Of a stretch of 64,000 bases of DNA, positions 881 to 49,390 are shown piece after piece. Made by a program: the position numbers and the translations under genes. Under the pieces are notes generated by a model. The model ran no database searches, had not been told where the DNA came from, and was given only the letters and a program-made list of their open reading frames with translations. Position 1 is the first letter of the stretch, and each line of letters starts with the position of its first letter. The stretch is from Diphasiastrum complanatum (lineage: Eukaryota > Streptophyta > Lycopodiopsida > Lycopodiales > Lycopodiaceae), in the NCBI GenBank assembly GCA_029204225.1, contig CM055113.1, forward strand, positions 22,515,605-22,579,604, written 5' to 3'.

Positions 881-886
881 AGCACT

Positions 887-4558: not shown

Positions 4559-4560
<2 letters not shown>
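887..4560 (-). pseudogene. hAT-superfamily transposase (BED finger, DUF659, hAT C-terminal), decayed
   Basis: Minus-strand transposase readable in pieces. A BED-type zinc finger exon lies at 4560-4311 (WTCRYCHQSYTGG, a following HL, then APC) and ends at a GTAAAC donor. A segment at about 3860-3650 contains LFYTCDLPFHLAR. The DUF659 core at about 3233-3050 contains YGCTIISDGWSDTRR. At about 2755-2555 there are FWTPCAAHCLDLL and then, in another frame, LRPAPTRYA. The hAT C-terminal region includes RPLHAMAHILHPLW (about 2235), PVSWWSKLGIDVPKF (about 1870) and LERLVYVHANLRLLG (about 1700), followed by a CAG/GTAACT donor. An Asp/Glu/Ser-rich tail lies at 1192-887. The protein is a DNA-binding cut-and-paste recombinase. 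A stop precedes LFYTC and a frameshift falls near 2650, so I call it inactive. Terminal inverted repeats were not located. Confidence 0.85.

Positions 4561-4563
<3 letters not shown>

Positions 4564-4625
<62 letters not shown>
4564..4625. repeat. (TC)n microsatellite
   Basis: About 31 uninterrupted TC dinucleotides just upstream of the putative start of the hAT transposase (minus strand), followed by a short imperfect TC extension to about 4645. Confidence 0.95.
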
Positions 4626-4626
<1 letters not shown>

Positions 4627-4802
4627 GCCTCTCTCTCTCTCACACAGATCTCTCTAAGTTCTAAGTTCTAACTAAACTCTAATAACTACTAACTAGTAAC
4701 TACTAACTCGGACTAACTCCTAAGTTCTAACTTCTAACTAAGTAGCTACCCAGGTCCCACACCCCTCTCACAATGCCCAGGCCCCACATTGAACCCCATC
4801 AA

Positions 4803-4975
4803 AATTCAACACACACACAATGTCACACACACACAAAATGTCACACAATGCACACACACAGACTACAGTGCACACACACAATCTCAGTGCTCACACAAAC
4901 TCACAGTGCACACATCTCAAAACTCACACACACACACAGTGCACACATGTCACACACACACACAAACACACATGA
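4803..4975. repeat. Degenerate (CA)n-rich tract
   Basis: Cryptically simple sequence made of repeated cacacaca runs separated by words such as atgtcacac and agtgcacacac. Open frames here only read His/Thr-rich simple sequence and are not credible genes. Confidence 0.85.
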
Positions 4976-4979
4976 GCCA

Positions 4980-6890
4980 AGATGTTCACAGGCACAAAGA
5001 TATTCATAACTATGAGCATACACTTGAGGAGGTCAAGAAAACAGCACACAAGCTGCAAAAAGTAGCAATCCTAGTGTTCCAACACCAAACCACACCATCA
5101 TGGCTCTTGGCAACCCATGGATTTGGGTGATGATCCAGAATTGCCACAATTTCCAAGCCCAAGTCAAAACATTTCATAGAGAAATTTGATGGTCAAAGTG
5201 ATGATGATACAATGGATAAATTGGACATTGGATAAAAGTGGCACTATCGAGTCTCAAAAAGTTAATTATGCATCTCAAGGCCACAATGTACAAGTGGTGA
5301 ATTAAGTGTCGTAAGAATGGTGAAACATTTTACACTTGAAATTTAAAGGGCTTAAACATTAAATTCACACTACCTAATGAGATAACCAAGGGCAGAAAAG
5401 GCTGAAGCTAAAGCAAGGCCACATGTTGATATAAAGGTATGCAAATAAGTATCGCCATTTGTGATTGTGATTATTGACATGGACATTGGTATGCAAGTGT
5501 TGTCAATTGGGCTAGGGCTAACAATCTTAATCATGCTATTGAGCTTCCAAGTTGGAAGACACAGCCTTTAGGTTTGGGATTTGTAACCCGAATCTGTAAG
5601 ATGAGATACATCAAGCTGAAGTTTGGTTCATTTATGTTTAAGAGAGAAGTTTCTTTGTGTTCCCTTGCAATTTTTTAATGAAGCTATGCAATAAAGGTTA
5701 GAAACTTGTCGAAATTAAAGTTTAAGCTCCAAATATGTCTATGAAAATCCAACCCTTCATAGTGATTAGCCTATAGCAGTTTATTAAAAATATGGTCTAG
5801 CCCTCATATGAAGAGTTTAGCCTCTTTCTTGAATGAAAGTTCGTTGGAGAGTTCCCTTTCTAACTAATCATGTTTTCCTTCTACAAGAAGGGTGGCACGT
5901 CAATAGCACTTAGGCTATACCAGCATAGCACTTAATATTAATCACATCTTATTGTTTGTCTTAGGCATTACTTTACTTGTAGTTAACTGAACGTAGTCAC
6001 AAGGACTCAAGAAGGGACCTGTCAATAATCATGGTGAGTGTTAAACACAATAAGTGTGCCAATAAAGAATCCCATTCTTTTTCCATGAGTCTTCAACGTC
6101 TTCATAACATATAACATGTTTTTGAAGTTCAATAACTTAGCATGTTCTCCAACAAGCTAGTAAACTGCAATTTAGAGCTCGAGCTGTTCATAAAAAGCTG
6201 TGAAGCTAACAAGGCAGATCGTGTATTCGTGTAAACTTCTTGCCAACTCTCACAAAAACTCACGTGTGGCCTGTCAACCAGAAAAGTTTCCTATACTCTG
6301 ACCAAACAAATATGCTCATATGGCATTGCAAGTTCCTAAAATGCCAAAGAATCAAACTAACCTTCACCATTTCCAAATGTATCTATCGTTACACTGTTTT
6401 ATCCTTAACACAGAACCTGGTGTCAAAAGAACCAAACCTCAAGGTAATACTGAATCAGCCAGTGTGAATAACCCTAAAGACAATTATCGGAAGAAGTGGT
6501 GTTTTGCAAAGGCACAACTGCTAAAGCTTTTAAATTTTTTACCATTGAAGCTTGTATAAGTTACTTTAACCTACGCAAATTTTCAGCGAGCTTTGCAGCA
6601 AAACAGCAATGCTACTCGGAAAGAAAACGGAGACAAATAATGCTTTGCTAAGGGTAGACGACACAGCAGGAATATAATCGGAAGTAGCTTAAGGTTTTTG
6701 CAAGCATTGTGCATAAGCTGGCGAGTCTTGAATCCGAACAGATAGATCTATGACAATGGGAGTACACGTTCACTCGTGACAGAATGCAAGAAACACTGGG
6801 AGCATATATGGAACGGGATGTCTAAGTTTTAGTGCTAGTACTAGACATGCGCCTCGGTTTGATTGAAAAAAATTCTGAGCAGCAGCTTGA
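4980..6890. other. Intergenic, no gene recognised
   Basis: No intact open frame, RNA gene or repeat boundary was recognised on either strand. The sequence is AT-rich and has the texture of old, decayed repeat DNA. Confidence 0.4.
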
Positions 6891-8442
6891 TGACAAACTT
6901 AAGCTGAATAATAACAATAGCAAGATGCAAAAACAGAAAGCAAGCACAGAACAGCAAGCACACCATACACTTGCAGCTTACCTTCCACATTTAATCCGTT
7001 GCTATTCAGCCTTCCGAGAGCAGTAAAAGCTCCACCGAGCATAATAATAACAACAAGATACGGCAACAACAAGTATGAGCTTCCCATGCCGAATGCACCA
7101 TTCCAAAGCAGCATCAGCATCATCGTCATCCAGAGCGCCCGCGGCGCACCTTGATCTTCATATCATGAAGCCAGCAGAACGCCGTAGCTTCGCTAGTTTG
7201 CTTTGTAATGGCAGCGATCGCGCAGCAGATCGAGCGAAAAAGGGCGGGCATGGATCGCGATCATTTGTGGCTGCTTTCCTTTCTCTTCTCTCTCTTTTTT
7301 GTGTGCGTCTCGTACATTTCTGCGTGCGAGGAAGCATGCCTCCGGAATTTAATTAGTCTTTTTTGTTCTTGTCCGAAGCTGGTCAGTAGCCAGTCAAAAA
7401 TGGTCAGTGGCCAGTCAAAATGGTCCCTTGCATTCCCATCTTGGGTCCTTGGTCTTCCCCATTTTACTGTTTTTACTTGGGAGGAGTGTATTCCCTACTC
7501 TTGAGTCTTGGGAGGAGTGTATTTCCCTACTCTTGAGTCTTGAATACTTGGGTGCCATGAGAGGTAGTGTTCCCGAAACCTTTTTGAGTTACCTTCAAAA
7601 GATTTGGTTTTTTTAAAGTTTCTCTGTTTTATGAGAAGTATTACTCTTTAAAGGGTTTATTTGCCTAGAAAAGTTGTTATTATTTTCATGATGTCGATTT
7701 TGGAAAAAAAAGGTACATGTTTCATTCCTATACTTTGTTATCTTTCTCGAGCACTCGGCCACCCCACAAGTGCCCCCATCTTGACTCGGCACTAGAGAAG
7801 ACAATGCTCAAGATGCTCAAGAAAAGTGACAAGGTATAGGGATGGAATCGACAGTATTTCTCAAAAATCGGCATCATGAAAAGTTTGACGACTTTTTATA
7901 CATATGCATATAGCCCTCTTATGAGTAAGTCTTCAAAAACTCAAGAAGCTTTAGTGCAAGTTTTTTGAAGATAACTCAAAAAAGGTTTGAGAGACACAAG
8001 TCCTTTGACATGGGTCCATTGACATGGGTCCAAGGTCTTCACCATTTTATTGTTTACTTGGGAAGAATGTATTAGTGATCTTACTCCCTACAAAGGACCC
8101 TCACCCTAATACAACTATGGAGCATGATTGCATACTGCATAAGTATATCTTTGCCTTGGAACCCTTCTTCATAGTTGAATTAGGGTGGAGCCCTACTTAC
8201 ACCCTCAAAATACTCAATACCAAGTTTCGACCAATCCAATTTCCATTTTTTTTGTCCTCATGTCTTGTTTGTTTTAATCCAATTTTTATTTTTTTGTCCT
8301 CATGTCTTGTTTGTTTTAGGTGCATATACCAACGTACTTAAAGCATCAATCTCATTTTTTTGGCCTTGTCTTGCAAATTCAATACTATGAAATAATGTGT
8401 ATGCATGGGAAAAAGTAGAAATGATCTACAATCAAGAAAGGC
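6891..8442. other. Intergenic with short local duplications
   Basis: Two adjacent copies of a roughly 31-bp word (containing ggaggagtgtatt and ctactcttgagtctt) lie at about 7479-7542. A diverged copy of the flanking text, containing cattttattgtttacttggg, recurs at about 8040-8070. The word ctcggcactagagaa at about 7783 recurs near 52330. No gene was confirmed. A short minus-strand hydrophobic open frame at 7129-6899 is discussed under findings. Confidence 0.4.
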
Positions 8443-9790
8443 ATGAAGGATCTCTCTCTACTCTCATGCTTCCTAATGCTTGGCTTGGGGGTGAAGCTTC
8501 TAGATATTGATTGGTTGCTTCTACTTGGTTGGGTGGTTTCTCCAATAGTGTGTTCTCTATTGTTTTGCCTTGTAAGTAGGATCTTGAGGTGTTTCTTTTA
8601 CATTGGTATCAGAGCAAGGCTTACGAGTGCTACTTTTCATCGAAATTTTGATGTGGATCAATTGGAATTCTCTTTCAGGTGGAGAGCAAGATTGCAAGTG
8701 GGTGTACTGTCCCAGTTTCCCTTTGCATGTTGCTAAGATCCATTTCTCACAAAAAAAAAATTGGGTTTTATTTTGTGATGCTTTTTTGGAACTTTTTCTT
8801 GTGTAGCTCAATTCTTGTGTCTGATTTTGATATTTTCATATATCATCTTTCCAATTAACTTTTATAGAAATTGGTAATTTCTTTAAAAGGAGAGGTGAAG
8901 TGATGGGATAAAATTCTATCTGAGGATCTATTGGTTGCATAGTTTTCAGAAGAGAACCAAGTGTGGTATAGAATGAGATTTTTTTGGAAGTACTTTCAGA
9001 TAGATTCAGAATAAGATACCAAATTGGAACATTTCGAATAAGAGAAATTCTCTAGGGATCGTGTGAAACAATCTGGAACTAAAACTGGTTTGGAATTTGA
9101 ATCATTGTCTATAAGTAGTACACTAATTACATTTTGATTGGAATGGGAATAAGTTTGATCAAAATTTAAGTCTGGAATGTCTGTATTAGATCAACCTGAT
9201 CTTAGTTTGAGTACTAGGATCAGGGAGGGGTTGATTGAGAGGAGGAAATTATGTTATTAGAGGTAAATTAGGTTGGAAAATTGGTGAGAGTGAATATGTT
9301 ATTCGTCTCAGCGATTTCCCAAATATCTTATTTACTCATGAGAAATAGGAATTCTTTTGTAGATGAGTGACAAGATTCTCAATGAGATAGTGAATAACAT
9401 ATGCGGATTTGGAGGAATCTGCCAGATAAGAATATGTTTATGTAATGGGTCATAGTGAGATTATTCACATATGTGCACAATTAATCTTGTATGAATCTAT
9501 TGTATATTCCTGGTTACTAGGGTTATTTGGTGCACTTAACCTAGTCGGTGAACATAAACATATGTTCAAGTATTGTTGGAACAAATAGTTGCAAAATTAA
9601 CGGATTTTTCTATGGAAGATATATTGGTGAACTTATAAATGATTTGGATAAGAATCTAAATGTGGTGTTATACTAGTATCATTGAGGATATGCAATTGTG
9701 ATAGTTGATTATATTTGTAAAATTAGTCCCTAAAAGTCAAGTGCACTAGTTGTTTACTCCCGATAGATAAGTATGAGCAAATCATAGTCA
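8443..9790 (+). mobile_element. Non-coding LTR element (family A), 5' fragment: U5, PBS, internal region
   Basis: From about 8443 the sequence tracks the end of the 5' LTR and the internal region of the complete element at 35121-38774, for example gattggttgcttctactt and ggatcttgagg. The LTR ends in TTACA just before TGGTATCAGAGC (8604-8615), the primer-binding site complementary to plant initiator tRNA-Met. Homology to the internal region at 35638-36890 continues to about 9790 with substitutions and small indels. I find no coding capacity, no upstream U3/R and no 3' LTR, so this is a truncated copy. Confidence 0.8.
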
Positions 9791-11876
9791 TTAACATATT
9801 TACATCAGTATGAGATGAGGCAATTTTTTGTGACCATAGCATCTAGTTGATCCTTGACAATGAAAAGGATATGTACGACATTTGACATTAATTTAAAAAA
9901 CAATCAAGAGTTGGTGCTATGAATATAAATGTTTGAATTTTCTTACAAATTGAAGTGCCTCACGTGATATGCATTAATGCCAGCATACTTTGTTGTCGAA
10001 AAAATCCACAATAGATAGCCTGGTCCTCTTTCAAAACTTTTCAAAGACACAAAAATATCGTGACATTGTTACTAAAATTATCAGAAGTAGTTCTTATCTT
10101 GTTAAACTTCATGCCAATTTACAAACATACGATGAACATTAATTAATAAAACCAAATCATACATGGAATTTTGCCAACCAACATGTGTCATTCTTTGATT
10201 GCATATTGAATGTCAGATCCACTATAATTTTTGAATTGTATAATGAATAGAGTAGTCTAGTTGTTCCGATTTTTTCTCCTTACAATTCACGATGAATAAT
10301 TTTTTTGCATTGACTTCATCCTTATATATATTATAATAATTAATCATGTATGATTTTTTATATCTATAAGTAAAAGTTTGGACTCAATAAATTCTAATAT
10401 TTTAGGTGTACATTTTATGTTTGTAGAATGATTCACTCCTCTCATCAAGACAAGATCTTGCTTTTATTTTTTAAAAGGGACAAGAAGTGGCTTACTAAAC
10501 TTCACATGTGTTAATGTCTCTTGTACAGTCTATAACAATGTAGTGCGTGTTTTAGGACCAATTCTAGAATCATCACATGTACCCTACACAATTGTTGCAT
10601 CTAAGACATGTTGCACATTCTTTAAAATCATTCCAAATTTAAATTTCTATCCTTTCCTAACATCAATGCTTTTGTAAATTTTGATGACAATATAAACTCA
10701 AAGAATCTCCAATGCTTGTAGAGGGGGTCTAAGCGTTCATTTGGCTGTGCCATGTCACTAGCACAAGAAATTTTTTTGGTTGAGAATGGTGTTCCCTCCG
10801 AATTCTTGGAAGATTTTTTAAGGGTAATCTATAAATCATCCATCCTTCACTACTATTTGTTGATGCTTTACATGCTTATTGAAATTTTATTTGGTTAGCT
10901 CATTAAGCTACATGTTGTCGCTTGATTTTGAAAAAGTGGTTAAATATGATCATCATATTGTACTTTTGTTCAATTGCATTCCATCTTATGAAAAGGACTC
11001 TTGAAATTTGATGAGAACATTGAAGCACATAAGATGGAACTTGGAGAAAGTTATTGTTGACATATTGACTGTTGGATCAATTTAACCCATAGATCCAAGA
11101 AGAAAAAATTTCTGGATTTATAAAAATACTAGTCAATTCTTGAAATTTGGGCGCAATTGATAGAATAAGTTGTTGGGGGTATTGTCAAAGGTTGAGTCAA
11201 TTTGAGATGCATAAAGTGATGAAGCGAACATAGTTTTTGGAGTATTTATTGATCTAGACATATAGTGAGAAGACTACTTCAAGGAAATTTGCAAAATCAA
11301 ATGCACAAAAAATATGACATTGAATTGTAATGTATTGGGATTGAGAACTGTTGTTGCAAATCTTCAAAAGACTAATCAAGCTATGCTGAAATTTGTTGAG
11401 GATTAAGAAGAAAAAAAGCATTTATGTTGTTTTTGAGGTCAAACTTCTTGAAAAAGAAGATACATATAAGAGGATGTGATTGAATTTCTAAGAAGAACAT
11501 AAGATGATCTGTTTTCACAAAGTGGGAACAAGAAAAAAAAGATTCAACCTCTCAAGTAAGTATTTTATTTGGGCTTTTGGAATTGTTCTTGTGTTTGTTG
11601 TGTGCCATTTGAATCTGATCAAATTGAATATGCCTTGTAGATCTTCTAAACTATCCATTGAAGAACATGTTGAAGTATATAGTACTTTGGACAATAAATG
11701 AGCCTTCAAAAGATTCCAAGAGAGATTTATTTATTGATCTATCTATCTATTGCAAAACTAGACTCCAATCCCTTGATCTAGATTACAATTTAGATCAAAT
11801 CAAGCAAACTCGACACCACATGTGTGTGGTACGGCCTCTAGTATAGCCTGCTAGCTGAGAATGATCCTAATCAAAT
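9791..11876. other. AT-rich decayed sequence, no gene
   Basis: AT-rich DNA without an open frame beyond chance length and without recognisable domains. It lies between a family A fragment and the Copia LTR and is probably retrotransposon-derived, but I cannot assign it. Confidence 0.35.
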
Positions 11877-12220
11877 GTTGTTTACTATTGCATCATAAGA
11901 TTAACACAAAAATGAGGGAAAAACTTGAGATAGTCCAGAAGCTCTCAAATCTTGAACTTACATCAATGGAATGATAGATTGAAAGTACAATAGAGATATT
12001 CTCCTCGGCTGGCTGGTGAAAATCTAGCATTTTATTAGGTGTTTAATCGGCATTTGGAATCATGACCAACTAACCTAAATAATCTCTATGATTGTGATCT
12101 AACCTACCTAGGCCTATTCTTCACACGCGTGAATAGCCTATACATGTGTGGGACCCACTTGTGTACAAATTTACAAGGTTTAATCAAGCTATTATTTGCT
12201 AATTTTGACAATTTCTGACA
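11877..12220 (-). mobile_element. Copia-type 3' LTR, minus strand
   Basis: Read on the minus strand, a purine tract (TGAGGAGGAG, 12230-12221) is followed at once by TGTCAGAAATTG. This is the usual junction of polypurine tract and TG-starting LTR in plant Copia elements. The LTR then runs through a non-coding stretch that includes the palindromic word CACGCGTGTG near 12125. The distal end is placed at about 11877, near AGTAAACAACA, from inspection only. Decayed pol lies upstream at 12623-13369, which fits the order of a minus-strand element. Confidence 0.6.
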
Positions 12221-12622
12221 CTCCTCCTCAAATTTAGCTTGATAAGACTATATACATCTATCTTAGATTGATTAATGAAAACTCTTAGAAGAATTCCAGC
12301 CACAAACAAGGTTCCTAAGGAGAATGATGTGAAGGATCTTTCACCATCTCTTAAAAGATCTCTTACAAAATGTTCCATAGATATGTCTTCATGCATGCAT
12401 AGATTCATATGAGATTTTTAAAGGAATAAAGTAGCTTGATGAGTTGACATGTAAAGCAATGATCTTTAGACTTCAATCCCCAATGATAAGTTAAGATGGC
12501 CGAGATCTAGCATATTGCACTTTCTTGATGCTTGCTTCAATGTAGCACATCTGAAAGCTATGCACCATGCCAAGCTTTGAATTCCAAGGCATTTTGTACA
12601 CTTGATGATATATCAATTGAGC
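12221..12622. other. Remnant between Copia pol and its 3' LTR, no gene
   Basis: About 400 bp between the polypurine tract and the last readable pol segment, where the reverse transcriptase and RNase H part of a Copia element would be expected. No recognisable motif survives, so most of pol is deleted. Confidence 0.4.
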
Positions 12623-13369
12623 TTATAAGTGCATAAGGAATTTTTCCAAATTCACTTGTCTTGCTTTATCCATATAAGTGAGCCTTGATGGCTCCATCTT
12701 GTTACTTGAAGACTTTCTTGGAGTCCTCGGGTCTTGAGTTTGCTCCTCCTCTTGACTTGACTCCAAGCCATCAATGATTTGGATTGGTTGATGATCCACA
12801 CATGCTTCTTCAAACTTATAGTTCTTCCCTTCAAAGAAGATTACATCTCTACTAATTACAACTCTCTTAGTAGGGGACATGCAAATCCAATAAGCTTGTC
12901 TTGAAGAGCAATATCCCACCATTATTCCTATCATTGATAACAGATTTTATTTGGTCCTTACTTTGGAATGATCATGCACAAAGCATGTGGACTCAAAGAT
13001 TTCCAAAGAAAACATACTAAACGATGCTTTATCCTTTATGACACCATTAATCGAACCATTACAAAAATAGTTATCCAATGAGATTGGTTTATCAACAACA
13101 AATGTAAATTGGAAAGCATTCAACTTCATTGTCTTGTCATATCCACATAATGTACTAAACATCATGAATGTTGGAGATAAGAGACAAGTCACTTCATGTC
13201 TTCTAACACTATCTATGAAGTATTTACAGATAGTAGAATCTGCATTGCACCTTACACTTGCAAAGACATAAAGCATACCAAAATGACAATGACAATCATC
13301 TTTAACCACAAAAAACTTTAGATTATTGTATAGAATCACATCTAGATACCCAAATCTTGCTGAATACAA
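12623..13369 (-). pseudogene. Ty1/Copia pol remnant (region after the integrase core)
   Basis: Two minus-strand open frames, 13369-12947 and 12934-12623, separated by a stop. The first ends in EIFESTCFVHDHSKVRTK and the second reads MVGYCSSRQAYW and then RRVVISRDVIFFE-like text (KRVVISRDVIFFEGKNY). Together these match the conserved segment of Copia polyproteins just after the integrase core (FGC-FVH ... VGYS ... SRDV-F-E). No integrase catalytic residues or reverse transcriptase motifs survive nearby. The higher-numbered part of this region also resembles the internal region of the family A element. Confidence 0.65.
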
Positions 13370-13560
13370 ATTCAGTTGATATTCTTGGAATCATTATGAT
13401 TTGCTATCCAATTGAGCTCTCTGGGACCCAATCACTAATGAACTGTGTATCTTCCTCCATTAAGGAATACTCCATACCAAGAATATTGTATATCCAATGC
13501 ATATAACTTAAATTGATGAATCTTGATGACTCACAAATCATGTGTCTTACAAGCAGTGCT
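13200..13560 (-). mobile_element. Family A internal-region fragment, inverted
   Basis: The reverse complement of this stretch matches the complete element at about 36980-37230. Shared words include gtaagacacatgatttgtga, ggtatctag and gatgattgtcatt, in the same order. It joins the Copia pol remnant without an obvious boundary, so family A may derive from a Copia element that lost its genes. That derivation is inference. Confidence 0.6.
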
Positions 13561-13654
13561 GGTTGTGATGGAGGTGGAAGGTGATTTGTTGGAGGTTCAT
13601 GGCAGTTGCGATGGTTTATGGTAGTGTAGTTGGCGGTTTGTGTGGGTGAATACA

Positions 13655-15379
<1,725 letters not shown>

Positions 15380-16154
15380 AAGAAGCTTGGCCTCCTCAAC
15401 AAATAGGCTTGCAAAACTTATGGTACTCACTTGTCTAAAAAACTGGATGTATGGATATTCAAGTGGCTTGTAAAGAATCTATAGATTGTATATTAAAAAA
15501 TCTACTAATGTGGAACAGTCAGTAGGGTCAACAACGACACTAAATGGTGTAACTATGGGCTGGGTATGATCTTTAAACTTGACTTTTAAACTATGTACAT
15601 GTGAAAATTTTGGTTTTCTAACCTTCGTACGCCTATCACCAATGATTGGCTCAATGGGAGGTCTGCCACATTGTTCAATATCTAAAATAAGAGTAGTTTC
15701 TTTAGTTTTTTTCTTTTTCTTTTTGTGAATAAGTGTTCACATTTTAGCCACATCTCTGCTAGTTGAGTCAAGAGTTATGGTGGCACCATTTCTAAAACAA
15801 GTTAGACAACTCACAATGGCCCTCAGTGCTTCACCAAAGAAGTTTCACATGCTCACATAGATGAATTTTCATAAAGCCATCTTCCAATATGTACAGATAA
15901 ACTTTGATATCCAGGGCTTTCACAGGAACGTTCGTGAAGCCATCATTCTCATATGCAACCGTTACCTTGTAAAGCACACATCCTTGGCAATTAAAGGTAC
16001 ACAACCCTTTGCTAGCTCTCGCAGCATTCCAAAGAAAAAGCTCCGTGAGTTTTTGTCCCTCATAGCCTTTCTTAAAGTAAAACATGTGGCATGTCATGTC
16101 CACCCTTTGTCGATAGGCGGGGTTGACTGGTGACTGAACCCTAATTTGAGCCAT
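15380..16154 (-). pseudogene. Decayed coding sequence of unknown family
   Basis: A minus-strand open frame begins MAQIRVQSPVNP at 16154 and runs 107 codons to 15831. A good splice-acceptor-like sequence (tttgtttttag) lies just upstream on that strand. Past the stop, protein-like text resumes in another frame (GEALRAIVSCLTCF, then RPPIEPIIGDRRTKVRKPKF, then FSVVVDPTDCSTLVDFL), interrupted by a stop after VAKM and another after FLIYNL. The total is about 250-260 codons of coding-like sequence with one frameshift and at least two further stops. I do not recognise the family. It could be a host pseudogene, a captured gene fragment or an element-encoded protein. Confidence 0.45.
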
Positions 16155-16922
16155 TTGTTTGAATCTAAAAACAAAAAGCAAAGATATCATAATAAATTGG
16201 TGAATTCCAAAATTTAAAGAGATTATTTTTTTTGCATATAGAGTAGTTGTGTGATAACAATTCAAGTCTGTCGTCCCTCCATGACATAACAATATTTTCT
16301 TGTACATACATTCTAGTCTTAGCTTTGTTCAGTGGTAGCTTTTTAAGGCACTTAGGTGCTTGTTGTGACACACAATGACAGGGGGTGGGAGCCATGAGAG
16401 CAGAGGGGTCTAATGGGCACAAGGAGAGCAAGGCGATGTGTGATTGAGGATGCTGGGCTGCAATTGCCAAGTTTCTTTTAGGAATTCATGGGCTTTTGAA
16501 ATGTTTTGCTCCCAATACAATTTTGTTGTGATACAAAAAGAGAGAATAAAGTAGGCCAGGCCCCTCCATTTGTATGTACTACAAAAACTGATTATACGAG
16601 GCACTGAGATGATAAAGTCCCTCACCGTTGGATATACAGAGGAGCACTCAGATTGTGCCGAGTGTAGGCAGAGCTAGCTCTCCACGTGGAGATCTGACGC
16701 GTGGCAAAGATCCAAGTGGGCGGATGCAAGAGACCTCGTTTGGCTGCACCTTCAAAAGTAATCTTGAAAGCACGGAAAGATCCAAAGCCTACCACCGTTG
16801 GATGCTGCTTAAAACGTTCAGATTTTGCCACGTTTACAATGGAACTTTTAGTGTGAGACGTGGCAAATACTAAGTGGTCTGGCGTCAAATTTAATGTGCC
16901 ATTAAAATCCATCAATAGAGCA

Positions 16923-16923
<1 letters not shown>
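16155..16923. other. 5' flank of the ALDH10 gene
   Basis: Upstream region of the dehydrogenase gene, with the words ccacgtgg (about 16682) and cacgtttac/gacgtgg (about 16828-16862). The ACGT-core motif CCACGTGG is a classic plant G-box. That it serves this gene is inference. No TATA box was identified with confidence. Confidence 0.4.

Positions 16924-16982
<59 letters not shown>
16924..16982. promoter_or_regulatory. (GA)n tract in the 5' leader, abutting the ALDH10 start codon
   Basis: About 29 GA units with one interruption (agcgag) run directly into ATG at 16983. In plants GA/CT tracts in promoters and 5' leaders are binding sites for GAGA-binding BPC proteins. Length variation here would alter the leader but not the protein. 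The regulatory role is inference; the position is seen directly. Confidence 0.6.
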
Positions 16983-16987
<5 letters not shown>

Positions 16988-19900
16988 GGGTATTGTTGTT
17001 CCTCGGTTTGAGCTCTTCATCGATGGCCAGTGGAAAGCTCCCATTCATGGCAATCGCATTCCTGTCATCGATCCTGCCACTGAACAGATAGTTGGTATCA
17101 ATCAATCAATCCGTTATTATTATTATTATGCTTTGCCATCCTTTCTTCCATTTGTTCATATCAGTGCTTTGATTTTGCTTGGATCGCTCCTTTTGTCTTA
17201 GATCTACGCTAACATCCGTTTCATTTGATCGGCAGTTTGATAATGTCTGTTATATTGGATTGAATAGAGCCGGTGGTAATCTGTTTATGCATTTTGTTCA
17301 TTTCTTGGAGTCGTGAATGTTTCGGCTTAAATGTAATGTTGAACGTTCGGCAAATAATCTTGATGGAACCAATTGTTGCAAGCTCATATCCGCTGAATTA
17401 GCAGTTATTGCTTGCAGAGTTAATAGCATATTTCCAGATCCCTCTCATTCTTGATCCTGTTTTTGTGTGAGATGCCATAGGCTTCCATGACTTCTTTGTG
17501 CAGACTCTTCATATGAGCTTGTTTTTCTTGATGTTTTCATTTTACTGATGTTTGGAACTGTGTTTGCAGGTGATATACCGGCTGGAACTTCGGAGGATGT
17601 TGATGTCGCTGTCAAAGCAGCTCGGGCAGCATTCTCAAGAAATAAAGGGCAAGATTGGGCACGTGCTCCGGGCAAAGTTAGGGCTCAGTATCTACGAGCC
17701 ATCTCTGCTAAGGTAGTTTCAGCCGTAACCTTTTTCAAGCTTATATTGTTGCTCCTGCTGGAACAGATATTGAGTGTAATGTGAGAAAATGAACAAGAAT
17801 AACTACAATTTTCATGGAAACTTGCTTTCCTCATTCGTAAAGTTTCTGGGTACCAGAGCATACTAGAGACAGGGGCCATGCATGCTTCATCACAATGACT
17901 TTATTCATTTACCAATTCAAGTTGTGTGGAAGTTTCTGTTTGAAGTTTCAACTCTAATCAAATGAAAGTATTAAGCACGGATTGCAAGTAGAAGAAGCAT
18001 TCTCAATAAAAAGAATTTCTTTTATTGAGAATGTTCACGCTTGGAATTTGACGCGCACACTCACCTTTCAGATGAAAAGGCTTCTCTTGGTTTTAACGTT
18101 CACATGACATGCATATCTGAATAAAAATATAAAAATGTGAGAAGATTTTACCTTTTCTAAACACAATCAAAACTTCAAAGTTTTGGCCTGGTATGAAGTT
18201 TAACTTTCAGAATTTACCTTTCAAGCAGAGGGGTAATATTTCAGTTTGCTTTTCACTTGACACGTTGCAATTTTTTGGTCCTTTCTTCGAAGGGCAAATA
18301 GGCCTTCAAAGTGCATTACAGCTTGCAAATGGCAAAAACAATATGAATATGGATTTGCATGGAAAAATAGGGTTGCTTGTAAAGTCAACATTGTGAATCT
18401 GTTTATACGAAATAGAAGTACACTCTGGTTTATATCAGGTTTGCCAATCGTTCATACGTGCAAGTGAGAAAATAATTGTATGCCCTACATGTGACCTATT
18501 GACTCATAAAATTTATCTGTTCGTCCATGAGTTTGTTTTTCATTGCTGGATCATTATAGGAAGGATATGTGGGCCCTTTATTTGTATTATTAGTTTTGTA
18601 GTATCAAGCACATAGCTGGGTGAACTCTAGCCTCCTCTTTTGCGTTGGTGCATAATACTAAGAAAAAGGTTACGCAAAATGAATACAAGGAACCAAGATT
18701 TGAGTTAGAAACGTTGATGGCACCAATCTTCATTGGAATCATAAAATTCTACTACTCACAAGAAAGAAGGTGCTAGCAATATCTTTATTGAAATTCAGTC
18801 TTTGTTTGTTGAAGAAAGCTCGATTGCTTGTATATTATCACATATGATCTATGCTTTGCGACAATATCGTAAGGTTGTGTATTTTCCTAATGTTTGGTCA
18901 TTTCTGCAAAAATCTTTAAATGCAGTTCGAATGTTTATTTGTTATCTTGAATGGGACGGAGGGACTCTCAATTGTCTTTTACTTGCTGTCAATATGCAAA
19001 AGCTCAAATTTCAACCTTCTAACTTGAGCCAATGTGGCCTTCGAAGTGAAGTTAGTTTCAGTTGGATAAGAGGTTTAAGACGCTTGAAATTTTGTGTCTT
19101 CTTTTTGGACCAACTATGTTATAAAGAGCAATTCGAAATCTCTTAGAGATATACGGTTTTGATCAGAAATCTCAGGACGTGTTTCCTGTCCATGAAATGC
19201 CCATCGGATAGTGCTTAGTTCTCAGGCTACTGGTTTGCAGGTCTTAGAGCGAAAAGAGGAGTTGGCTCGACTGGAAGCTCTAGACTGTGGCAAACCTGTT
19301 GATGAAGCAGCATGGGACATGGTACTTTATTGGCTTTGCTCATATATGACTAGCATCCTTTCTGAACCTTAAGAGCTAGATCTGTGGACATTAAGGAAGA
19401 TCACATGTGATTATATCAATGTAGTTTGTAAATTTGAGCTTGGATCAAATTTGTTATTATGTCTAGCAACTAGACTCAATTTTGAATAAACAGTAACTAG
19501 GAAGAAAAAGTGAATCATGATGTTATGTGTCACTTGCTTATTGAACATTATTTGGATGCCCATCAGACCATGATGTTGTTATTTGGAAGAGATTGTGTTA
19601 TGTGTACTGGGGTTTTCTTATAGTGGTTTTATTGTTTTGGAGACTTTCAGGATGATGTGTCAAGATGTTTTGATTATTACTCTGATCTAGCTGAGGCTCT
19701 AGATGACAAGAACTATGCCGCAGTGGAAATACCTTTGGACAAGTTCAAGAGCAATGTGCTGAAGTTTTCTTATAGTTGTTTATTTTTTCGAGACTTTCAG
19801 GATGACGTGTCAGGATGTTTTGAGTACTATGCTGATCTGGCTGAGGCTCTAGATGACAAGAACTATGCCACATTGGAAATACCTTTGGACAAGTTCAAGA

Positions 19901-22900
19901 GCAATGTGCTGAAAGAGCCGATTGGTGTTGTGGGTCTGATTACACCATGGTTGGCTCTTACTCCTATAGTTTTTCTTTTTGCTGATGACATTGTTTGTTT
20001 AAAGATTGTACGAGCTTTGATGTTTGCCACTGTGTCGATTGTGAAGCCAACCATCCTACAAAAGGTTGTACTTTACATTCTTTGGAGATTGTTTTTATTA
20101 AGTATGCTTTGTTTTTGTTTTTGCATGTCTTGATCTTTTCTAGGAAAATCAATCAAAAGACTTCCAACAACAGCGATAATGAGTCAAACATTAGCTCTGA
20201 TCATCGTGGTTGAATCCAGTATTTTATAAATCATCTCTGACATATTGCAATAATGCAACTGATGAGAAGCTCTGCTGTTATGAGGAATGATTATTCATGT
20301 TGCTTTCTTCTGTCATCCAATGTCTGTCTTTATATTTACAGTAATGTAGAAGAACACGTATGGTTACAGTAGCTTCCTGAGGTATTCATATATTATTGCT
20401 TCTTCTGTTTACCACTTTATGATATTTAAATGCTAGTTCTCTGTTTAAGACCTGGATGTTGAAATCAGGAACTACCCTCTTCTTATGGCCGCATGGAAGG
20501 TTGCGCCAGCTCTTGCAGCAGGATGCACAGCTATCCTAAAGCCATCAGAGCTGGCTTCTGTGTAAGCTTTTTTATTGATTCACAAGCTCATCTGATTTTA
20601 GTCTACAATTTGGCAGTTTGTTTTGACCTTCATCTGTGGTTTTGTGCAGCACATGCTTGAAATTTGCATCCATAATGCAGGATGTTGGCCTGCCTCCTGG
20701 AGTATTCAATGTTATTACAGGACTAGGACCAACAGCTGGAGCACCATTAGCATCACATCCTGGTGTGGACAAGGTGATCTGTTGGCTTAACGCAGTTCAT
20801 GGGAACTGCTTTCTAACATGTACTCATTAAGTTGAATATTGGAGAGCTCTTCTGGTTACTTACAAGTTATGCTTGTATGTGTTGTATTCCAAAAATACAT
20901 GGATGGGGGAAGGTAGGGGGTGTGCGTGTGTGTTCGTATTGCACCCCCTGCACGTCTGTGTGGATTTATGTTGTCTGCTGCTCTGGGATTTTACAATCAT
21001 TTAGTGATGTATATGCTATTCAATCTGCAGTTAGCATTCACTGGCAGTACAAGCACAGGTCGCATGATAATGACAGCAGCTGCACAAAACATCAAGGTGA
21101 CTTTGTGACAGTACAAAATGACCATAAAGAGTTCCTATTAGTTTTTGAATTGATCAACTACACCACTGTTTTGCATGATGTACGTTGTACTCTTAGTGCC
21201 CAACTGGATTCTGGCTATAATATGTCAACATTTAAGTACATTACTAAATATCAAATAATCGATGTTATCTGCACTGTGAATGGCAGCCTATTTCTTTGGA
21301 GCTTGGAGGCAAGAGCCCTATCATCATCTTTGATGATGTAGATGTTGAAAAAGGTTCATAAACATCTCTTTCTCTCTGTGTCTCCTGTATGACTCTTATC
21401 ATTTTGTTTTCATTTCTATGAAAGAGCAGATAAAAGTAGCTATTTATATTATTCATGGATAGTAAAGTTTGCATATCTTATATTGTCTCTGTTTCAGTTG
21501 TTGCTAGTAAGATGTCTCTGACCTTGTAGTTATCCAGGAATGCCTCTAAACCTTTTGATGCATTTTCAGCTGTAGAGTGGACGATGTTTGGAGCTTTTTG
21601 GACAAACGGTCAAATCTGCAGTGCAACGTCACGTCTTTTGCTCCAGGTGCTTGTGACAGTATACATTCTATAGAAATATTGATCTTTTAAGTTCTTCGAT
21701 TTTGCTCTGTATTTGACATAGGCAGTAATGTAAGGATTCATTGTTATTTCTTCCCTCATTCCATGTCTAGGCTTTGCTATGAACAAAATCAAATTTCCTG
21801 GCATACGGCAGTTCAAATGCATTACGGAAAGTCTGTAAACAAAAGCAGGTGAGGTGTTAACCAAATTCTTTCATGCAAAGCCATATTTGAAAAGAAATTA
21901 AGGGAGTTACCTGGTTTCACTGGTGTGAAGTAATCATAATGACAATACTACTTATGAGAATACTTATTGTAATGATAGTTATCACTAAAATTTCCATGCT
22001 TGCAACTAAAGAAGTGAACTGAGGCTTTTACCTACACAGCATTATTACCACAGATAACCTTTTTTTCTCCACCTAAAATCTGCTTGGACATACCTTGGCA
22101 GAAATTCATCAACTGTTATGACAAAAAATTGGACGGTAGAAAGCAAAGCCTTTTGCCCTACAAACTACCGAAAGCCAGAAAGAGAAAGATCTATGTGACT
22201 AGCGTGTGCACTGTGAAAGCCTGCTGCCAGACAGGAGATGGAAAAGTTCAGGCAGAAGTGCTATATAAGGGCTTGTAAAAGTAAGGAACTTAGTTTGATC
22301 GTGTGTATCTACATTAATGGCTGCTATAAAGCTGCTTGGTGCAGTGACCTTTTTTCTACATTTGAAATCAATATATAACCAGGTCAAGAATAATTGGCAA
22401 TGGCCATATAGCATGACTCTATCATGGAATCTGCTGTGCAGGATCTAATACAAATATTCACTTTGAATGCTTAAAGTGTGGGCAATAGATGAATGCAATC
22501 AGACTCAGCTGCAGCTGACTCCCAATATTAGAATCCCCTATGGTCATTTCTGGGGATGCTTTCAGGTTCTGCAATTAGTTTGGCACATGGGAAGAAGGAA
22601 ACAGAAAGGGTTATCTTACTGTCCAATTAAGAGGATTGGACTCAAAAACTGATTGGCCCTCTCAACGCTCACAACGATAAGATCAAATTTCTGTGAAAGT
22701 AGCCAGAGATTTCCTAGTATTAGTAGATTGCCCCAATCTACTAATACTAGGCAACCAGTGCTGCGAAATGTGTTGATGATGACTGCTTCTGATTGTTGTC
22801 ATGAATTTGAAAATGTGCAATCATTCAAACTACACCATATAATATAGAATAATTCCATCTAACTAGTCTAGAGAGAACATTTTAAAGATTGATCTCCCCG

Positions 22901-25900
22901 TTTTAGGCTACAAGCTTCACAAGAAAGTTGGAGAAGTTGATCTTGTTTGTCTAGGTTGTCCTTCAATATTGTCATAATTAACTGACGCTGGAGTGATTCT
23001 TATTTCATGAAAGCATATTCTTAGGCAGTTCAAAAATTATATTGAAAGATATTATGAGATGCACTATTGTTTTTCTTTCAGTCCTACAGACATTATCAAC
23101 ACTATTTGTTTTGCTACTCGCATTATATTTTATACAGTCAGATGCATGTCATTGCATTTGTTGCATGCCATAATGATGAAGTTGATGGCCTTAGACTTTG
23201 TGGGAGAACTCCATAAGATTGAAGATTACCTTCTTTGTTATGTTAAGTACTATCCTAGACATGATGTTGATGTACAGTTTTTTTCTTGTAATTCTTCTTA
23301 AGTGCACTACAGGTTTTCATTAAGAAAAGTGCAACCGGTTTACAATTTCACAACTATACTAATTTGCGGCCCTTCGAATAGAAAAAGTACCATCAACTCA
23401 TCTAACTTGGAAAAGCATTCTTCCGAGTCTTGGCCAATAGCTTTAAATAATGCATTAAGAAAATGGATTTATGCTTATTATTGCAGGAATCAATTGCACC
23501 GTCCTTTTTGAAGAAACTGGTGGAATGGACTGAAAGTATAAAAGTCACCCATCCCTTAGACAAAGATTGCCGGCTTGGACCAATTGTCAGCGAAGCACAG
23601 GTAAGATGAAGGCAAGAGAGAATGCACCTTAATTTCTATCAATAACATTAAACTTTCTTACTTGGAGATAATATTTTTTGTTTGCATGTCATCACTCTTT
23701 ACTATCTGAACAGAGTGATTCTCTAAGCCAAAGGACTTTTTCTGAGACAGTAATACACTACAAAAAACTTAAGCACCATAAGATGTAAGAAGAGAATAAC
23801 TATTAACAATTTTGCTCCTTTTCTCCATACATGTAGGTTACAGTTGATAAATGGAAGAGGTAACAATAATCCTTTGTGTATGCCTATAGCATAGTTGCCT
23901 GTTCCTGACGGGATGCGTTCCAGAATGTGCTCCGTTCCAGAACGGACCCCCTTTAGTTTCATTAATTAGTACGTACCGTTTCTTAATATAAAAGTGCAGA
24001 TCAAGGAGTCAATGGACAAAAGATAATCACATCATCAAAAGGAATCATCATTATCAGCATCAGTACTCTCGATGGCTGCATGCATCGCTAGGAAGAATAC
24101 AATTGAATTCCTCATCTTCACTTCTGTATCTTCCCTCATTTTATTTGTTGGCTTTGTAAGTTGGCGATGGCTGCATGAATCGCTATGAAGAAGACATAAT
24201 CAGTGCTCATCTGGGGGATTCGCTGATGGAAGTAATGTTAGAAGTTTAACTTGCCAGAGTTTCATTGTATGGTGAAGCCATAGCTTGTGATGCGCCTATA
24301 GCTACATTCTTTGATTGATTTTCTGAATTTTTCTTTCGAGTATTTAGGTGTGAGATGTCAGTACGTCAGCAAACAGTAAATTCAAAGGATTGGAAGAGAG
24401 AAGGAACTGGCTGAGAGATATGAAACTATTAAGAAAAATGAAAAGAATATGAACTACTCAAAATTGCTATTGTTCTATGACCAGTACTCTAATGGGTTTG
24501 GTGTAAAATTTGTATGGATCTGGCTGCGCTATCATTATGAACTGAATTGTACATGGTAGCACCAATGTTTGCCATCATTGACAAGTGTAGTTTACAGTGA
24601 AAGCGCCATTCAGTTTGTCTAGAATTTGGCTGATCATGATCGTGCTGTTGTGTTCAGTTCTTATAAGGGCACATATTTTATGAGTAGTTTGAATGATACT
24701 GGTACCTAGGATCAGGATAATACCTGCAGATGGGCTTTGTTAAAGAGGTCAGTGATGAGTTTGGTTGCTTAGTGGCACTGCGAAGGTTTTTGACCTGGCC
24801 AACGACGCTGACCCCATGGTGGGCGTCCATTGGCCACACATGTTCCCATAAAGTACGGGCATCAGGAGGGACGCATGAACATCCATACCACTGGGGGGGG
24901 GGGAGGGGGAGGTGTTGAGTGGGGTGGGTGGACGAGGGCTTCGCGCATTGATAAAGCCTTAGCAAAGTGCGATATATTTTGTGATCGTGGAACAGGGATT
25001 TTTTGCTTCTGGGATGTATAAAAGACGTTCAATGCATGGCAGTTTGTCAAGGCTCCACATGGCTCAACCTGATTGGTCAGGTTTAAACTGCTCCCATGTG
25101 CATCGATGAGTTTGTGCCTGCGACTTAAGTATTCATGCTATGGAGATCAATCAATGGAGGCAGAGGTTTTTTAAGAAAAGAATGCATGATATAAGTCTCT
25201 TGATGAACAAAATGTAGGGAATCAATAAGTTGGGCTATCTCTCCTGTGATATATTCTCTTTATTTGTCAGACAATATTATTTTTGAATGCATTTTGGGTT
25301 GCGGACAAGATTTTTCCGGAACGCAAGTGTATGTATCGACACTCATTATCCCGTGGCCTACATGGCTGTATTGGGCTGGGACGGACTACTCCAGCTACTT
25401 TGTGGTAAAGTTTCTGATGACACATCTGACATACATGATGTCCTCTAAAATTTTATTACAAGTTTTTTATGTCCGTGTGATTCAAACTTCAGATCTCAAG
25501 GAGACAAAAGTTGTCGTCAACCAACAGATCACATTTTGCTATCCGTTGTTTGGTAATAGGAAGCATAGTCATTTATGATAGACTTCTAATTATGTTGGAA
25601 GCAGATTTGCGTGCATTGGTTGAATCTCAAATGAAAAGTGCCAAGTTCCAATTTAGCTCCTGACATGTTTAGAGAGAGCAAATTTCCCACGTGGTTTTTG
25701 GGAAGGAATTTGTAGGATGTCCAGCTTTCAAGACTAAAAACACCCTCAAAATGGTCCTCAGCTGACAATAGCTGTTTTAGTTTTTGCAAGCTTTTTAGTA
25801 GGAGAACTTGGAGGAGCAGAGTTCTTCATAGTTGGGCTGCAACGGATTGCATTGTCATTAGTATCTTTGTTGGAAAATTTTGATAGTTTTCTGCTTTATT

Positions 25901-28900
25901 ATTCTCTTTGTGCATAATATTAAATTTTGCTATCATGGTGGTAGATTGTGTAGTTTGTATGAAAATTTGTGCTTCCGGAAAAGTCTTCATTTATTTTTGT
26001 CATTTTTATGTTATTTCAGTCTTAACTCTCTTACCCGTTTCCATATCTTGAGAGGAAGAATGGCTTTATCTTGATAATTATGATACTGTAGGATTCTCTT
26101 GACAGCCATGTGGAGTTAAAGAGATGAATGCTGGAAAGGAGTTTGACCGATGAAAATTGGGTGCTGGAAATTTTCTGATGGCAGACCTATTGTTCCAGTC
26201 AAGTGCTAAAGCAATCTTCCTTGATTTTATAATCATTTCAAAGAAAATCTACCAAGACATTGACTAACCTATTTTGCTTTCTGGTCTCCTTTTCTTATCA
26301 TGTAGTACAAGAAGGTGTTGAAGTACATCTCCAATGCACAGGCAGAAGGAGCCAAGCTTCTTTGTGGAGGCAAACGCCCAGCTGTAAGTCTCATCAGGCC
26401 AGAACTAGCAGCACATATACCAATTTGAAATTGCCATTTACTGGACATTACTGATTATAATTGTTACAGCATTTGGAGAGAGGGTATTTTGTGTCAGCAA
26501 CTGTGTTGGGCAATGTGACACCATCTATGCAAATCTGGAAAGAGGAAGTTTTTGGCCCTGTTTTAAGCGTGACGACCTTTAACACAGAAGAGGAAGCACT
26601 TGAGCTGGCAAATGACTCCTCGTATGTGTTTCTACTACACAACAATAAGATGACTGGGATGCAAGTTTTACTTGGTTTAAGTCCTTCAAGTCTAAGAATA
26701 TTGTTAGACTATGAAACTCACCTTTTAGACTTTTTCCGGCTGAGGATTTATTAGTCACAATTATCGGATGCATTACTTCATGCTACATAGGATGAACTAA
26801 AATATTTCTTTCATGTTGGGAGTATAGGTATGGGTTGGCAGGTGCTGTTATCTCCAAAGACACTGAACGTTGCAAAAGAGTGTCAGAGGTATGAGTCATT
26901 CTGTTGCTTGGTTGAATTTATTGAAACTGATTACATTTGTACAATTCAGCTGTAGTAGCTTATTTTATCCCATTGAATGTCTTCAGATGTGGGTTGCTCT
27001 AAAATTTTAGGTCCATTTGTATCTTGATCAAACAATGAGTCTTATTCTTTTAAATAATCATATCAAATAAGTTATTAGAGCCATTTCTCCTCTTTAAGCT
27101 AAATCCTTATGCTTAGGATATGAATTCAGATGCTATATACACATTTCCCAATAACTTAAAACAAACTTTTAATCATCAGCGGGAGGTATGAGTGTGTTTT
27201 GATCATACCCGAACTTGGGAATCAAATTAGATGCCAGAGCTGATCACCAATACTACACAAAGATGTGAACCTAGTATCTAGTATCTACTTTGGGATATGC
27301 AGCAACTTGTGCAGAGGTTTGGAAGAACTAGTATATCAAGTTTCAACCCTTGGGCATCTGTCAGTAGATGTTAAATCTGATAACAGAACATTTGTTATAG
27401 ATAGTATGATGTCAGAAGCGAAAGGTCAAAGTGTGGAATATATTTTGGTTTAAGAAGCTCGTATGTAAGTGTTCACCTTTAAGGATGATGATGCAATGGA
27501 TGAAGAAAAATTGGATAGGAGTTCTAACACATGGAGGTAAGCCAAAGCAAGATGGATGCGTGAATGGGGTCAATAGAATATCCTATGGGTACTCGAATCG
27601 ACAAGGAACCCTGTGAGGTTCCATATATTGTGGCTGCTGAGTCAAACCTCATTGAAGCCATATCCGTAGTTACTATAAGTAAAGGGAAAGCCACATGATT
27701 TCCTGACAAGTAATCAGGACTGCTCAAGAGCAACAATATTGCTCATGAATGATTCAAGTTTGCTTTCACCTCTCTGCAAAGAGTCCCTGTTTGTTTGTTG
27801 TGATATTAGATGCATCTCACTTGTAATATTTCATTGCATCAAGTATCAGATTAAATGACTTCAGATGCATCGGCTTAAAAAGATACTAATACGGTCATTA
27901 GCACAAGGAAGGCAAGTCAGTAGAAAAATACTTCATGTGCTCCAATGTTGGAAGAATGTTGGGAGCTTCAATGTTTTGTGGCTGGTGATGAAACCTCATT
28001 GAGCTCATAATTGCAAGGTATTGTCAATGAACATGTAAGCACACAACATCCTGGCCAATGATCGTGAACGCTCAAGAATAATAAGATTTTGCTCATTAAT
28101 CGTCAAATTTTGCTTTGTGCTGTGCATAGGGTTCCTATTTGTTTGCTGTGAGAAGAGAAGCAACGTAATAGTAAGCAATTTGCTGCATCAAGTGTAAGGT
28201 CAAATGCCTCCAGCCTTTATAGTTTAAGTGAAGAAGTTCTTGGCCACCTAGTGCCTGCTAAGCTTATAAATGCAATAAAAAAGAGGGACTCCTCCCTCCA
28301 TGCAGACCTTAGCTTGCATGTCTGTTTGTTATGTATATAGCTGGTTGGCATTGATAACTTTGTTAGAATTTGTATTTGGAAAGTCGAAATGGAAATTAGA
28401 AGTAGACAAGGCATTTTTGGGATTGGATAAGGTAGCTGAAACTCATGACTCATACTCGTAAATTTTTGCTTGTCTTCAGGCTTTGCAGGTTGGAATTGTG
28501 TGGATTAACTGTTCTCAGCCTGTTTTTGTCCAAGCACCATGGGGAGGCACAAAGTGCAGTGGATTTGGTCGGGAACTTGGTGAATGGTAAGTGTCTTTAT
28601 CACTGCGCCTGGTTGATTTTTTAAGAAGTTATTGATGTAGAAAAGCTGTGGCTAATCCCATCGCTTTAGAGCAATTTAGTACATATTGAGGCTTACGTTT
28701 TGAATTCGCTGCTTTTGCAAATTGCCAAAAACCATAAGTCTGCATTTGTGTATCCTTGACATTTTTCTCACAAGAGTTGTCCATCTAATCACCTTTCACA
28801 GGCGAATGAGGTAAGCTTCTGACTTCTTATTCTTTATATGCAGGGGCCTTGAAAACTACTTATCCGTCAAGCAAGTTACGCGCTACATTTCTGATGATGC

Positions 28901-28934
28901 CTGGGGATGGTATCCACCACCCTCTAAGAAATGA
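16983..28934 (+). CDS. Aminoaldehyde/betaine aldehyde dehydrogenase, ALDH10 family
   Basis: NAD-dependent oxidation of aminoaldehydes (polyamine catabolism) or betaine aldehyde (glycine betaine synthesis). Exons: 16983-17094, 17570-17712, 19241-19321, 19801-19949, 20469-20561, 20650-20773, 21031-21096, 21287-21353, 21570-21646, 23487-23600, 26306-26383, 26470-26621, 26828-26888, 28480-28586, 28844-28934. All introns are GT-AG, phases match, and the sum is 1515 nt (504 aa), the family's usual length. Landmarks: ITPWN (N163), FTGSTSTG (237-244), ELGGKSP (E261), GQICS (catalytic C295), [15 protein letters not shown] and GFGRELGEW. The residue equivalent to spinach 441 is Ile445, which in this family points to aminoaldehydes rather than betaine aldehyde as preferred substrate. 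The C-terminus PPSKK is not a canonical SKL peroxisomal signal, and no clear transit peptide is seen. An extra copy of exon 4 lies at 19651-19763. Confidence 0.95.
17713..19240 (+). other. ALDH10 intron 2 (1.5 kb)
   Basis: Begins gtagtt and ends ttgcag. AT-rich with no recognised element inside. Open frames here are short and lack domain signatures. Confidence 0.8.
19612..19913 (+). repeat. Tandem duplication of ALDH10 intron-3 end plus exon 4
   Basis: The unit consists of about 37-39 nt of intron end (gttttcttatag ... gactttcag) plus the first 113 nt of exon 4. It occurs twice, with the exon parts at 19651-19763 and 19801-19913, exactly 150 bp apart. Both copies keep the same acceptor, and the translation [12 protein letters not shown] is repeated. 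The 37 nt joining the copies is open in frame, so using the first acceptor and reading through adds exactly 50 residues. Splicing the first copy straight to exon 5 would also keep frame but would lose 12 residues including ITPW. The second copy gives the canonical protein. Confidence 0.9.
21647..23486 (+). other. ALDH10 intron 9 (1.8 kb)
   Basis: Begins gtgctt and ends ttgcag. It separates the catalytic-cysteine exon from the ESIAP exon. It contains a short perfect foldback at 22713-22751; no other element was recognised. Confidence 0.8.
22713..22751. repeat. Perfect 18-bp foldback in intron 9
   Basis: The arm CCTAGTATTAGTAGATTG (22713-22730), a 3-nt CCC loop, then the exact reverse complement (22734-22751). 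The arms are identical, so the structure is probably recent or maintained. It is too short for a typical plant miRNA precursor. Confidence 0.9.
23601..26305 (+). other. ALDH10 intron 10 (2.7 kb, longest)
   Basis: Begins gtaaga and ends atgtag. Contains a G-rich tract at 24893-24931 and a self-similar stretch with cgttccagaa-type words near 23905-23945. No transposon ends or coding sequence were recognised. Confidence 0.75.
24893..24931 (+). other. G-rich tract with quadruplex potential
   Basis: A run of eleven G, then agggggagg, then gagtggggtgggtgg within 40 bp on the sense strand of intron 10. The spacing satisfies the usual four-tract quadruplex pattern. Such a structure in the pre-mRNA is possible but unproven. 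Confidence 0.7.
26889..28479 (+). other. ALDH10 intron 13 (1.6 kb) with an old internal duplication
   Basis: Begins gtatga and ends cttcag. Two diverged copies of the same text lie at about 27625-27870 and 27975-28210. Shared words include aaacctcattga, ctcaagagcaa/ctcaagaataa, attttgctcat/tattgctcat, gtttgctgtg and gcatcaagtgt/gcatcaagtat. The copies are too decayed to assign to an element. Confidence 0.6.
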
Positions 28935-49091: not shown

Positions 49092-49390
49092 TTCAGATCT
49101 CCACCGACGACCTCAAGTCAGATCTCGCCCGATGCCCTTGCGTCAAATCTCGACTGACGCCTCGCGTCATATCTCGACCGACGCCTCGCGTCAGATCTCG
49201 ATCGACGCCTCAAGTCAGATCTCGACCGATGCCCTCGCGTCAGATCTCGACCGACTCCCCGTGTCAGATCTCGACCGACGACCTCGCGTCGGATCTCGAC
49301 CGACGCATAATCTCGGATCTCGACCGACGTATAATCTCATATTTTGACCGCATAATCTCAGATCTCAACCGACCCTTGAGCCGTCGAGAC
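49092..49390 (+). repeat. Minisatellite array 1, about 11 copies of a 24-25-bp unit
   Basis: Unit approximately GTCAGATCTCGACCGACGCC plus 4-5 bases. Copies drift toward the right end, where cataatc replaces cctcgc. Its reverse complement carries the core TCGGTCGAGATCTGA, the same core as the arrays at 58.2-59.1 and 59.7-60.2 kb, which read in the opposite orientation. Confidence 0.9.

Follow-up and report, generated by a model that had tools for sequence, protein, structure and literature searches.

Partial tandem duplication of exon 4 in an ALDH10 gene of Diphasiastrum complanatum

Introduction

When part of an exon has been copied next to itself within a gene, which copy is used, and what becomes of the other? 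The question is raised by a stretch of 64,000 nucleotides (nt) from Diphasiastrum complanatum (GenBank assembly GCA_029204225.1, contig CM055113.1, positions 22,515,605 to 22,579,604 of the forward strand), here called the window and numbered from its first letter, in which the end of intron 3 and part of exon 4 of a gene of the ALDH10 aldehyde dehydrogenase family occur twice. An initial annotation of the window had suggested that the gene could thereby yield active and inactive subunits of an oligomeric enzyme. We conclude, with a probability of roughly 0.68, that the locus carries a partial tandem exon duplication in which the downstream copy (copy 2) functions as exon 4, and the upstream copy (copy 1) is a pseudo-exon that splicing mostly passes over, although a minor isoform of 554 residues may include it.

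Results

Tandem Repeats Finder detects a direct repeat at 19612-19913 with a period of 150, 2.0 copies and 91% matches, and an ungapped repeat comparison aligns 19635-19763 with 19785-19913 at 92% without a gap; this similarity is far above chance level. Two neighbouring homologous exon copies thus lie within one gene, as in a tandem exon duplication, and the in-frame 150-bp duplication of the end of intron 3 and part of exon 4 that the initial annotation had reported is confirmed. The duplicated unit, repeated at an offset of 150 bp, joins the closing 39 nt or so of intron 3 to 113 nt of exon 4, whose full length is 149 nt. The same annotation had described most of exon 4 as present twice, which is correct for these 113 nt but does not extend to the real donor, which is absent from copy 1. 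The parts of the duplicated region are as follows.

19603-19611, + strand: TGTACTGGG, the upstream breakpoint, which resembles TGTGCTGAA at 19755-19763 (repeat comparison)
19612-19650, + strand: first copy of the intron 3 tail, 39 nt long, with acceptor 1 at its end (AG at 19649-19650; 8.0 bits), from Tandem Repeats Finder and splice scoring
19651-19763, + strand: truncated exon 4, copy 1 (113 of 149 nt), lacking 12 residues and the exon-4 donor and differing from copy 2 at 9 of 113 sites
19764-19800, + strand: former intron tail between the copies (37 nt), open in frame and ending in acceptor 2 (8.8 bits), from frame reading and splice scoring
19801-19949, + strand: copy 2, the complete and conserved exon 4, which all eight sequences found in the PDB match over residues 1-49

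The unit starts right after TGTACTGGG, and its first copy ends right after TGTGCTGAA; GTTTTCTTATAG follows both. As the breakpoints thus have similar short words, including the imperfect 7-mers TGTACTG and TGTGCTG, the duplication probably arose by slippage or unequal exchange between these two words. Because the unit ends inside exon 4, copy 1 received an acceptor and was left without the exon's donor and the 36 nt that precede it.

The exon parts of the two copies (19651-19763 and 19801-19913) are identical at 104 of 113 sites with no insertion or deletion, and the two intron tails are two substitutions and two single-base gaps apart. We rejected an assembly or sequencing artefact, to which we give very little credence and of which the single assembly examined gave no sign, since a divergence of 8% in the exon part argues against a simple assembly duplicate and the tails have diverged as well. 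All nine exon differences fall within the first 73 of the 113 nt and the last 40 nt are identical (nominal p = 0.02 for a split chosen post hoc), a pattern that could be due to partial gene conversion.

The gene that contains the duplication is otherwise intact. Its spliced model runs from 16983 to 28934, has 15 exons and 14 introns (14/14 GT-AG), and encodes 504 residues through copy 2 of exon 4. We considered whether the whole gene is a pseudogene, and its 15 exons, 14 GT-AG introns and open frame of 504 residues led us to reject this. Apart from exon 4, the exons of the spliced model are the following.

16983-17094, + strand: exon 1, with the start codon at 16983 and a GT donor; the protein matches plant ALDH10 chains
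17570-17712, + strand: exon 2
19241-19321, + strand: exon 3
20469-20561, + strand: exon 5
20650-20773, + strand: exon 6
21031-21096, + strand: exon 7
21287-21353, + strand: exon 8, containing ELGGKSP
21570-21646, + strand: exon 9, containing NGQICSATS with the catalytic Cys (also from the PDB alignment)
23487-23600, + strand: exon 10
26306-26383, + strand: exon 11
26470-26621, + strand: exon 12
26828-26888, + strand: exon 13
28480-28586, + strand: exon 14, with the Ile aligned with spinach A441 (also from the PDB alignment)
28844-28934, + strand: exon 15 and the stop codon

The assignment to ALDH10 made by the initial annotation is upheld by the full-length match, which ranks above other ALDH families, and by the motifs. 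Eight plant ALDH10 sequences in the PDB match the 504-residue protein at 737-837 bits, while the next matches, named betaine aldehyde dehydrogenase, reach at most 461 bits (among the best 60 of 75 matches). The alignment of the 504-residue form to 3iwj, at 837 bits, is free of insertions, and PF00171 matches the protein at 580 bits. The catalytic motifs PWN, ELGGKSP and NGQIC are retained both in the 504-residue model and in the alignment. At the position of spinach Ala441 the protein has Ile, a residue that the available part of a review (PMC7823795) associates there with low betaine aldehyde activity. This suggests that the product of the gene would have low betaine aldehyde activity, and the locus has the look of an ordinary gene for an aminoaldehyde dehydrogenase.

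Is the second copy of exon 4 an old feature of the family or a recent addition? The genome assembly (1.745 Gb, 5176 contigs) holds a second ALDH10 gene on two contigs (C13:13646001-13666000 and C10:4338001-4358000, on contigs of 58 and 64 Mb, respectively). The surroundings of these two copies are 99.76% identical over 19.7 kb, so the pair either reflects unresolved haplotypes or arose by a recent duplication, segmental or chromosome-scale. Matches to the C13 paralogue cover nearly all exons, with residues 236-255 (exon 7) missed at the threshold used, and no such twin of the window gene came up when the genome was searched with two of its pieces. Each of the two paralogue copies has one exon 4 of 149 nt with a GT border as in the window gene, and the 20 kb of each contain no second exon-4-like piece, save a 17-nt match at E = 0.34. 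With one exon 4 in the paralogue, the simplest reading is that the duplication arose on the branch leading to the window gene.

The paralogue also gives direction to eight of the nine differences between the copies, although it is the sole outgroup and its exon 4 and the one in the window gene share just 75% identity, so that the polarisation can err. Six changes are derived in copy 1, three of them silent and three changing a residue (Gly to Arg, Glu to Asp and Ala to Ser), and two in copy 2. The changes of Glu to Asp and Ala to Ser hit residues that are invariant in the paralogue and seven aligned plant ALDH10 chains; the third places Arg where these sequences have Gly, Ala or Ser, the paralogue having a codon for Ala there that shares the base with copy 2. 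Against all eight plant ALDH10 sequences found, copy 1 scores below copy 2.

Which splice products could this arrangement give? Joining exon 3 to 19801 yields the protein of 504 residues, and joining it to 19651 yields one of 554 without a stop, so that the reading of the 37-nt linker as stop-free, and of the two lengths, proved right. Splice signals were scored with a matrix built on the introns of this same gene, which is small, so the numbers serve only as a guide; the gene's 14 real acceptors span -0.8 to 10.7 bits and its 14 real donors -1.35 to 9.2, with the exon-4 donor at 3.86. An acceptor precedes each copy, as had been claimed, and the two score alike, at 8.0 bits for copy 1 and 8.8 for copy 2.

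The donors are another matter. Mutually exclusive exons need an acceptor and an in-phase donor each, and copy 1 has a good acceptor with in-phase donors that are too weak: of the nine GTs from 19651 to 19800, three would keep phase with exon 5, and at -8.2, -2.2 and -2.2 bits they score below every one of the 14 real donors. The initial annotation had proposed that copy 1 could be spliced straight to exon 5 in frame. The phase holds, since GAA|GTTTTC at 19763 closes an exon of 113 nt, but this GT (-2.2) lies below the weakest real donor (-1.35). An in-frame splice from copy 1 to exon 5 is therefore improbable; as an alternative exon giving a shortened subunit, which would in addition lack 12 residues, we consider copy 1 extremely unlikely. 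The plausible in-frame fates of copy 1 are skipping, or fusion to copy 2 through the linker.

The remaining GTs allow a further possibility, in which copy 1 acts as a poison exon whose out-of-phase donor shifts the frame and sends the mRNA to decay. Three of the nine GTs do fall within the range of real donors (2.35 bits at 19656, 0.82 at 19755 and -0.93 at 19777), all of them out of phase and frame-shifting. The real exon-4 donor scores higher, however, and the stretches around the GTs at 19656 and 19755 recur unchanged in copy 2; splicing there would destroy the working exon. We regard this explanation as very unlikely.

Does the open frame through copy 1 and the linker indicate a function? 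In neutral simulations from the present frame (substitutions only, no insertions or deletions), the 50 codons stay free of stops with a probability of 0.77 after six substitutions and 0.70 after nine. With so high a neutral probability, the openness of copy 1 and the linker carries no evidence of function. Nor does an open linker need much luck, as 55% of shuffled linkers of 37 nt lack a stop, and a third of all lengths preserve the frame. If the original tail had 39 nt, the addition was one of 152 nt that broke the frame, and the in-frame state came later; if it had 37 nt, the addition was in frame from the start. Changes of residue on the copy 1 branch (three of six) are compatible with neutrality (p = 0.18).

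It might be argued that the two acceptors are regulated, giving active 504-residue and inactive 554-residue subunits in chosen proportions whose mixing in the oligomer would tune the enzyme. Both acceptors score well and both products are open, but the open frame is expected by chance and copy 1 is altered at conserved sites, and we would give such regulation no better than an outside chance. A bolder version, in which a frame-preserving accident made a two-product gene whose near-equal acceptors 150 nt apart tune oligomer activity, has a slim chance of being right; there, the open state could have been reached through small deletions from a 152-nt addition.

What would the added residues do to the protein? 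A bacterial homologue that is 52% identical in its best segment was modelled with a mean predicted local distance difference test score (pLDDT) of 74. A single helix of this model, at residues 93-119, extends across the point that corresponds to the exon 3/4 junction; pLDDT falls below 50 at residues 121-137, beside the insertion point, and only the helix was used. The 99-residue piece encoded by 19651-19947, folded alone, had a pLDDT of 49 and gave no usable model. By the homologue model, the 554-residue form would have the helix completed by copy 1, followed by the linker and then by a repeat of the helix's second half, and it is expected to fold poorly or to have reduced activity.

These results bear on the opposite view of the locus, that acceptor 1 is the main or sole acceptor and that the 554-residue protein, with its insertion of 50 residues, is the normal and tolerated product. 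In its favour, acceptor 1 is transcribed first and is nearly as strong as acceptor 2, and the added 150 nt are open and in frame. Against it, the insertion would repeat half a helix and the next segment inside a conserved fold, and none of the five alignments examined, from 75 matched PDB sequences, has an insertion at the exon 3/4 position. We regard this view as unlikely.

Several observations made elsewhere in the gene and the window are recorded here. Exon 14 encodes TKCSGFG where five aligned PDB plant chains and the C13 paralogue have KRSGFG. Many plant ALDH10 proteins end in the peroxisomal signal SKL; the C-terminus encoded by exon 15 is SKK, and the targeting of this protein may differ from theirs. 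Intron 10 contains a short direct repeat at 24070-24212 (two 48-nt copies 95 nt apart, 79%), possibly another local duplication in the gene. Beyond the gene, profile matches mark retroelement pieces at 46776-47573 (RVT_2, a copia-type reverse transcriptase), 49455-49916 (Retrotrans_gag, gag) and 61494-63085 (RVT_1, RNase H and integrase zinc domain). Tandem Repeats Finder reports a perfect 92-nt tandem repeat (2.1 copies) at 60821-61009. Arrays of an approximately 25-nt unit with a common GGTTGAGATCTGA / GGTCGAGATCTGA core occupy 58221-59045, 59673-60210 and, in the opposite orientation, 49093-49373, and seem to be three arrays of a single satellite-like family.

Discussion

We suggest the following course of events for the partial tandem duplication. 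The end of intron 3, together with the 113 nt that open exon 4, would have been copied in tandem, probably by way of the imperfect 7-mers. The downstream copy, which retains the whole exon and its donor and has stayed near the family sequence, would then have served as the working exon 4, while the upstream copy, with an acceptor of its own but no exon-4 donor, would have begun to diverge as a pseudo-exon. Most mRNA would join exon 3 to 19801 and encode the 504-residue aminoaldehyde dehydrogenase, and some may take the acceptor at 19651 and be read through into the protein of 554 residues.

Several points weigh against this account. Acceptor 1 comes first in the transcript at a score close to that of acceptor 2, so the long form could be common. 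Copy 2 has derived changes too (Val to Leu, and one that is silent), and the imbalance of six to two is not significant (p = 0.29). The exon part of copy 1 is free of insertions and deletions, and the nonsynonymous differences (5 per 88 sites), set against the synonymous ones (4 per 23), hint at constraint without reaching significance (Fisher p = 0.087). At this p value, and with the branch count given above, purifying selection on copy 1 is not demonstrated; no statistic here tells copy 1 apart from neutral decay.

The duplication is ordinary in kind, a known type of event, and our search of the literature (titles and the beginnings of abstracts) found no description of a duplicated exon in ALDH10; the titles listed include two on BADH transcripts or splicing (PMC3591102 and PMC2588449). 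The interest of the duplication is that it clearly shows an exon copied in part, with an acceptor but not the exon's donor, which leaves two main splice outcomes, both in frame. The locus thereby offers a small natural test of how a plant chooses between acceptors that are nearly identical and lie 150 nt from each other. Knowledge of ALDH10 itself would change only if the long form turned out to be produced and to be stable.

Tandem duplication of exons is recognised as giving rise to alternative splicing (Kondrashov and Koonin, 2001, as cited in passages of PMC2674458 and PMC3266260; Letunic, 2002, as cited in the latter). Like the cases those passages describe, the ALDH10 locus has adjoining homologous exon copies and a length difference that is a multiple of three; unlike them, its unit starts in an intron and ends in an exon, leaving copy 1 with an acceptor and without the exon's donor. 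In Arabidopsis, MAF1 has mutually exclusive exons, two separate exons with transcript evidence, according to the relevant portion of PMC3266260. Both are plant genes with two neighbouring exons, which MAF1 uses alternatively; copy 1 of the ALDH10 gene is truncated, and its alternative use would be a possibility read from sequence. The gene otherwise resembles those of the plant ALDH10 enzymes of known structure (3iwj, 4i8p and 4a0m, among others), with a full-length match, retained motifs and Ile at the position of spinach A441, and it differs from them in its extra, truncated copy of exon 4 and in the Cys of TKCSGFG, where the five aligned chains have Arg.

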